Below, piece by piece: positions 15,547-16,817 of a DNA stretch of 64,000 nt (position 1 is the first letter of the stretch; every line of letters starts with the position of its first letter). The notes under the pieces were generated by a model. The model saw only the letters and a program-made list of their open reading frames with translations. It did no database searches and was not told where the DNA came from. This DNA comes from Streptomyces atratus (GTDB lineage Bacteria > Actinomycetota > Actinomycetes > Streptomycetales > Streptomycetaceae), in the NCBI RefSeq assembly GCF_014648655.1, contig NZ_BMRN01000003.1, forward strand, positions 204,335 through 268,334, read 5' to 3'. A program made the position numbers and the translations under genes.

Positions 15547-16035
15547 CTACCGGTAGTTCACGAACTGCACGGCGAAGTCGAAGTCCTGGCCCTTCAGCAG
15601 CGCCTGCACGGCCTGCAGATCGTCCCGGCTCTTCGAGCTGACCCGCAGCTCATCGCCCTGGACCTGCGCCTTGACGCCCTTCGGGCCCTCATCGCGAATG
15701 ATCTTCGCCACCTTCTTGGCGTTCTCCTGGGAGATGCCTTCCTCGATCGTGGCGAAGATCTTGTACTCCTTGCCGGACAGCTGCGGCTCGCCCGCGTCCA
15801 GAGACTTCAGCGAGATGCCGCGCTTGATCAGCTTGGACTGGAAGATGTCGAGGATCGCCTTGACCCGCTCCTCGCCGTTCGCCTCCATCAGGATCTTCTC
15901 GCCGGACCAGGAGATCGAGGCGCCGGTGCCCTTGAAGTCGTAACGCTGCGAGATCTCCTTGGCGGCCTGGTTGAGGGCGTTGTCGACCTCCTGCCGCTCG
16001 ACCTTCGAGACGATGTCGAAACTGGAGTCGGCCAT
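15547..16035 (-). CDS. YajQ family nucleotide-binding protein
   Basis: 162-aa YajQ-family protein, full length ([23 protein letters not shown] start). Some members bind cyclic di-GMP and act with transcription factors; others are described as general nucleotide- or RNA-binding proteins. The sequence alone cannot tell which applies here. The ATG is preceded by AAGGAG on the minus strand. It is a single-gene unit followed by the inverted repeat upstream of ogt. Confidence 0.9.
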
Positions 16036-16248: not shown

Positions 16249-16293
16249 GGCGGTGTGGCTCAGCCTACCCAGGTTCGAACCCTGGCGCCGCCA
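16249..16293 (+). pseudogene. Remnant tRNA gene, probably tRNA-Tyr, lacking D and anticodon arms
   Basis: The 5' acceptor strand GGCGGTG pairs fully (one G-U) with CGCCGCC at the 3' end, followed by discriminator A. A perfect T-arm (CCAGG, loop TTCGAAC, CCTGG) precedes it. Only about 14 nt lie between acceptor and T-arm, including GGCTCAGCC, which looks like the variable arm of a class II tRNA such as tRNA-Tyr. Thus about 40 nt with the D and anticodon arms are missing and it cannot decode. The Tyr assignment is inference from the sequence type and location after yajQ. Confidence 0.65.
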
Positions 16294-16299
16294 CATAGC

Positions 16300-16337
16300 A
16301 AGGCCCCTGTCCCAGGACAGGGGCCTTCTTTGTTTCT
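16300..16337 (+). terminator. Intrinsic terminator after the tRNA remnant
   Basis: Perfect 13-bp stem AAGGCCCCTGTCC / GGACAGGGGCCTT with a 2-nt loop, followed by a T-rich stretch (CTTTGTTTCT). A textbook terminator directly behind the tRNA remnant, supporting that this was once a transcribed tRNA unit. Confidence 0.85.
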
Positions 16338-16367
16338 GCTCGAGGGGTCGTGAAGAGGTTCGTGAAC

Positions 16368-16817
16368 GTGGATCCTGTGTTGGTCAGCGCCTGTCTGCAT
16401 GGCGTGCCCTGCCGATTCGACGGCCGCGGCAAGGCCTCCGCCGCAGTGACCGAGGCCATCGGAGACCGCCGCCCCGTCGCCTTCTGTCCCGAGGTCGCGG
16501 CGGGACTGCCCACCCCGCGCCGCCCCGCCGAGATCGTCGGCGGCGACGGCCACGACGTGCTGGACGGTCGCGCCCGCGTCGTCGACGACACCGGGCACGA
16601 CGTGACGGAGGAGTTCGTGGACGGCGCCCGGCGGGCGCTGGAGGCCGCGCGCAGGGCCGGGTGCACCGAGGCGCTGCTGATGGCGCGCAGCCCTTCCTGC
16701 GGGCGCGGCGCGGTCTACGACGGTACGTTCACGGGCGAGCTCCGCGAGGGCGACGGCGTCACCGCCGCGCTGCTGGAGCGCCACGGCATCACGGTCCGCC
16801 CGGCGCCGGGCGGCTGA
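16368..16817 (+). CDS. DUF523 family protein (TudS-like)
   Basis: About 150 aa, DUF523 family. Characterised relatives (TudS) are [4Fe-4S] enzymes that remove sulfur from thiolated uracil. The conserved cysteines are present in SACLHG, FCPE and PSCGRG, plus PCRFDG. The GTG at 16368 gives the family N-terminus (DPVLVSACLHG) and has AGAGG 9 nt upstream; GTGs at 16350 and 16362 are alternatives. The enzymatic role is inferred from the family only. Confidence 0.8.
   Translation: MDPVLVSACLHGVPCRFDGRGKASAAVTEAIGDRRPVAFCPEVAAGLPTPRRPAEIVGGDGHDVLDGRARVVDDTGHDVTEEFVDGARRALEAARRAGCTEALLMARSPSCGRGAVYDGTFTGELREGDGVTAALLERHGITVRPAPGG

Follow-up and report, generated by a model that had tools for sequence, protein, structure and literature searches.

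The question raised by this locus is why the deposited genome of Streptomyces atratus contains a tRNA-Tyr gene that cannot decode. In the window, i.e. the whole 64,000-nt stretch that was analysed, positions 16249–16293 comprise the acceptor stem, a remnant of the variable arm and the T-arm of a tRNA-Tyr, whereas the D-arm and the anticodon arm are missing. The remnant consists of the acceptor 5’-strand GGCGGTG, 13 nt (TGGCTCAGCCTAC), the T-stem and loop CCAGG-TTCGAAC-CCTGG, the acceptor 3’-strand CGCCGCC and the discriminator A; the 46-nt string at 16249–16294 occurs only once. On the plus strand, the 5’-remnant (16249–16257) includes GGCGGTG and tRNA positions 8–9, and intact Streptomyces genes begin with the same nine nucleotides. 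The 3’-remnant (16258–16293, plus strand) includes the remainder of the variable arm, GGC-TCA-GCC, followed by the T-arm, the acceptor 3’-strand and the discriminator. The two remnants meet at 16257/16258, at a presumably artificial junction that lacks 37 nt comprising both absent arms; its placement is ambiguous by 1 nt (G on each side), and it corresponds to both limits of the maximal match between the intact genes of relatives and tRNA-Tyr of Escherichia coli. Thus the acceptor stem, T-arm and discriminator A of a functional tRNA-Tyr are present, while GUA in an anticodon arm was found at 16249–16293 neither in the sequence nor by ARAGORN or Rfam, and neither program called a tRNA there.

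The gene is followed by its intrinsic terminator (16300–16332, plus strand) with a 13-bp stem and a T-rich tail, the hairpin occupying 16300–16327. The stretch 16296–16336 folds with −25.7 kcal/mol (z-score −5.1), and none of 200 shuffled sequences was equally stable. Rfam matches to a miRNA and a Burkholderia sRNA near the terminator were rejected as weak, with scores far below the gathering scores. The upstream neighbour (15547–16035, minus strand) belongs to the DUF520 family (Pfam PF04461, E = 3.7e-61), the best-known member of which is YajQ. The downstream neighbour (16350–16817, plus strand) is a gene of the 2-thiouracil desulfurase family (PF04463, E = 1.1e-42), also known as DUF523. 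No match to the locus was found in the plasmid and phage collections.

The same locus was compared in related strains, as the initial annotation had proposed, and a complete tRNA-Tyr gene, 37 bases longer, was found at the same position. Hence the remnant is a genuine tRNA-Tyr sequence, and a chance resemblance is ruled out. It shares with the intact Streptomyces tRNA-Tyr(GUA) gene, the attachment site of SLP1, the position, the acceptor stem, the variable-arm remainder, the T-arm and the terminator, and differs from it by the absence of 37 nt of the D-arm and anticodon arm, so that it is unable to decode. The initial description of a tRNA-Tyr-like gene with these two arms deleted, with a T-arm, the correct discriminator and a terminator behind it, is therefore accurate. 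Its acceptor stem, described as perfect, is indeed present; however, it contains one U-G wobble, as do intact Streptomyces genes.

Without any tRNA-Tyr an organism would not be expected to live, and the tRNA-Tyr gene of S. lividans is reportedly essential. We searched the assembled S. atratus genome (9.83 Mb in 243 contigs, 99.99% complete) for a second copy. It contains 70 matches to the tRNA family, none of them Tyr. ARAGORN, applied to 66 loci, assigned a tRNA to 69 of the 70 places, which together account for 19 amino acids, all except Tyr; the remaining place has the anticodon UCC. This uncalled tRNA (L078, 106–177; G000:C26:69215-69286) has an odd T-arm and lies near a normal tRNA-Gly. 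The pattern spanning the tRNA-Tyr sequence from the anticodon to the T-arm is absent from the whole assembly, and BLAST of the locus against its own genome yielded no match beyond the locus itself and its terminator hairpin. A functional tRNA-Tyr elsewhere, which had been postulated together with a whole-genome check, was thus not found among the 70 tRNA matches. Apparently, the tRNA-Tyr gene is an ordinary, single-copy gene in this genome.

The truncated gene is not confined to S. atratus. A pattern scan of contigs from one genome per species yielded at least 118 loci, 36 of which contain a complete truncated gene; a 37th case (L176) runs off the end of its stretch. Among the matches listed, all 37 truncated cases come from Streptomyces, from records with BM or BN accessions whose contigs are named “sequenceNN”, and from JCM or CGMCC strains. 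This record style is presumably that of the GCM 10K type-strain project. The other 81 of the at least 118 loci have no truncated tRNA-Tyr, and a few of them end in the T-arm of what is apparently another tRNA; in Streptomyces records of this group with accessions other than BM/BN the gene is intact (five of five). In a sample of 392 genomes of the genus, a truncated gene was found in 21, twenty by a strict pattern plus one (G192) with a different T-stem. The anticodon-to-T-arm stretch is present in 369 of these 392 genomes, with the provision that the 3’-copy of an attachment (att) site can also give a match. Such is the case in G039, the only one of the 21 truncated genomes having this stretch, where it belongs to a 3’ att copy without a D-arm. 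In a family-wide sample of 394 genomes, which overlaps the genus sample and was searched with a slightly looser pattern, 24 genomes carry the truncated gene, all in one of 17 genera. In three genomes of the genus sample, G010 (93% complete), G198 (81%) and G276 (94%), both the intact and the truncated pattern are absent. Another genome, G120, has three anticodon-to-T-arm matches on three contigs, perhaps reflecting several elements at the integration site.

The limits of the loss were then considered against the similarity to E. coli tRNA-Tyr genes, which were found using an intact Streptomyces gene as the query. In most of the intact Streptomyces genes inspected, a single block matches E. coli; it begins in the D-arm with CCCGAG and runs to CTGCCG past the anticodon arm. 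In some of them the block contains one mismatch (GAGTGG), and genes with CCGTCG or CCGCCG past the anticodon match E. coli tRNA-Tyr poorly. Fourteen distinct intact forms were compared with E. coli tRNA-Tyr by blastn with +1/−5 scoring, that of VecScreen, and the matched interval was deleted. Eleven of them produced a match, with scores of 31–37 against the wild type and 25–31 against the amber version; three produced none, and truncated versions of these three were not seen among the collected loci. For all six observed truncated forms, deletion of the matched interval from intact forms recreates the truncated sequence exactly, so that the limits of the loss are the limits of the match, also where the match varies.

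Five of the six forms share a single junction, which makes the sixth one, from S. echinoruber JCM 5016 (L104), the discriminating test. Here 34 nt rather than 37 are missing, and TCG is left behind. Three intact genes having the variable arm of S. echinoruber (G234, G240 and G286) carry CTGTCG instead of CTGCCG, and their match to E. coli is 3 nt shorter; the smaller loss in S. echinoruber is what this earlier end of the match predicts. The rule also holds in the opposite direction: S. xantholiticus JCM 4863, whose record has the same style, has a best score of 14 and retains the gene, as predicted. Another record of this style counts against the explanation. In S. albiflavescens CGMCC 4.7111 (NZ_BMMM, L169/L242), again with the same record style, the gene is intact despite the full 37-nt match, and hence the cut is not universal in this series of records. 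This assembly perhaps belongs to a batch other than the damaged ones.

Taken together, the junction shared across species, its coincidence with the E. coli match, the co-variation of the two, the escape of gene copies with a short match and the absence of any other tRNA-Tyr among those found in the genome point to an artefact. We consider it very probable that about 37 nt were taken out of the record due to their match to E. coli tRNA-Tyr, and the organism almost certainly still has them. The initial annotation had allowed for a loss of about 40 nt during assembly; this is nearly right, with 37 nt missing, although their loss is most likely due to later editing and not to the assembler.

Such editing would have proceeded as follows. 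The assembled contigs would have been screened against a contaminant library that includes E. coli tRNA-Tyr, most likely a library of cloning vectors of the UniVec type with the amber-suppressor version supF. The Streptomyces stretch of 37 nt from CCCGAG to CTGCCG would have matched and been mistaken for vector, deleted, and its flanks joined. Compared with a false supF vector match, the missing stretch indeed has the limits of the maximal E. coli tRNA-Tyr match, while the editing step is what we infer.

The choice of the library is suggested by other E. coli-like sequences. Of the 21 truncated genomes, eight still carry a stretch of 48 nt that is the same as in E. coli 23S rRNA. Had the contigs been screened against the complete E. 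coli genome, this stretch should have been removed as well, and such a screen is therefore unlikely. The other 13, S. atratus included, have no match to this stretch and are uninformative about the library; the pattern is also without a match in one of four comparison genomes. Two 16S comparisons were uninformative: a search for the 16S family gave 0 of 7, but only 9 of 14 controls were found, and a 16S pattern gave 1 of 13 and had no match even in G005, a single-contig genome. Cloning vectors would fit a library that includes tRNA-Tyr of E. coli and lacks 23S rRNA, and we think it likely that a vector library was used and that the match arose via supF, which is presumably contained in UniVec. 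The identity of the library as UniVec with supF and that of the editor are parts of the explanation that we infer, as is the passage of the S. atratus genome through the same screening process. As to published practice, supF, a suppressor form of E. coli tRNA-Tyr, is found on shuttle vectors according to the accessible part of one paper (PMC9584611), and in the accessible part of a genome paper finished contigs were compared with UniVec by BLAST and then corrected (PMC8290105). In the main text of the paper on the gcType/GCM pipeline, as far as it was accessible, the word “vector” occurs zero times and vector screening is unmentioned (PMC7778895), a further point against the explanation. Among the papers listed, no report of a vector-screen error in tRNA-Tyr was found, judged by titles and the openings of abstracts.

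One of the two options offered initially was a real internal deletion that left a scar or an attB core, with a functional tRNA-Tyr elsewhere. In this reading the scar would be that of an SLP1-like element, and tyrosine would be decoded by another tRNA-Tyr missing from the draft. In its favor, such elements do integrate at this locus, and the assembly is still at draft level, with 243 contigs. In S. coelicolor, according to the accessible text of PMC3009677, SLP1 sits in the tRNA-Tyr sequence; when it inserts, tRNA-Tyr is regenerated at attL, and a repeat of 112 bp remains at attR. The same source and a 17.6-kb element at the same site in G039 confirm the earlier suggestion that SLP1-type elements use the tRNA-Tyr gene here. 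As in an SLP1-type attB, the 3’-part of tRNA-Tyr lies beside the DUF520 gene, and in G039 this site is occupied. The G039 element (L280; G039:C7:313500-332500), which is SLP1/AICE-like and adjoins the YajQ-like gene, encodes an integrase (L280, 16673–18034; phrog_1, E = 3.7e-27) as well as a protein resembling FtsK/SpoIIIE (L280, 9966–12638; phrog_31069, E = 9.1e-96); these two ORFs had no Pfam match and were named by PHROGs.

However, SLP1 not only regenerates tRNA-Tyr at insertion but also leaves the sequence restored on excision, as described in the available portion of PMC3009677. A real deletion would moreover require an independent origin in species with differing variable arms, and the other tRNA-Tyr was not found in an assembly that is 99.99% complete. 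The junction is accounted for by the identity to the E. coli gene, which it tracks, and with no second tRNA-Tyr found we rejected an SLP1-type excision scar; the initial option of a real deletion is unsupported and appears highly improbable. The G039 element is instructive in this respect. Of its two tRNA-Tyr copies, the one next to the integrase and the YajQ-like gene is truncated, whereas the distal one, whose match to E. coli is only 20 nt and which is uncut, retains AGCAGACTGTAAATCTGCCG ahead of the sequence common to both. The ends of the element form a direct repeat that halts exactly at the excision point, which suggests that the G039 gene once had the bases that are now missing.

An error of the assembler, with the hairpin-rich middle of the tRNA collapsed or skipped, was also considered. 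The affected genomes are mostly drafts of several contigs. Among 199 genomes with contigs counted by hand, the truncation occurs in 12 of 155 multi-contig and in 0 of 44 single-contig ones (Fisher p = 0.07). This tie between truncation and draft status is weak, and it is broken by G667, where the truncated gene lies at 4.983 Mb in one contig of 8.83 Mb, nearly the whole genome (about 390 kb of it were examined). The expectation that no closed genome carries the cut thus failed. At 21.5 kb from the truncated gene, G667 has a 3’ att-like copy (L331, about 2508–2583, near 5,004,430 of C1) with the anticodon arm and a foreign 5’-part, called as tRNA-Tyr by ARAGORN; its match to E. coli is 19 nt long, and it is untouched. 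This arrangement argues against a fault of short-read assembly, and a simple short-read collapse was rejected since G667 is a single contig. Moreover, the anticodon-to-T-arm stretch was assembled in the 369 genomes mentioned above and in the att copies of two affected assemblies, and the break follows the identity to the E. coli gene, moving by 3 nt when the identity does. We consider an assembler error very unlikely.

It could also be supposed that the truncated gene is real and functional. An armless tRNA-like transcript might have a non-decoding role as a minimal RNA, given that the remnant has a folding z-score of −2.4, with 5 of 200 shuffles as stable, and retains the terminator of the gene. 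Such stability, though, would be provided by the remaining acceptor and T stems. In the 392 genomes the truncated form replaces the intact gene and was never seen beside a complete one, and the named cases go with one record style. An armless or split functional tRNA was therefore rejected, and we assign next to no probability to a minimal RNA. Alternatively, the 46-nt gene may be real in some strains, with tyrosine decoded by a plasmid- or element-borne tRNA-Tyr that escaped assembly. This seems extremely doubtful; were it so, G667 would be the first place to look, where the att-like copy at a distance of 21.5 kb would stand as the candidate substitute.

With removal of a vector-like stretch from the deposited sequence as the preferred explanation, the locus is, as biology, an ordinary tRNA-Tyr gene, and its importance lies in data quality. 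An indispensable tRNA gene has apparently been silently damaged in the reference genomes of dozens of Streptomyces strains from culture collections, with the flanks joined and no N at the junction. The false loss will enter tRNA counts, models of codon decoding, surveys of integration sites and studies of gene loss that use such records. As a prediction only, the proposed mechanism would produce cuts of this kind in any host gene that is similar to a marker carried by vectors.
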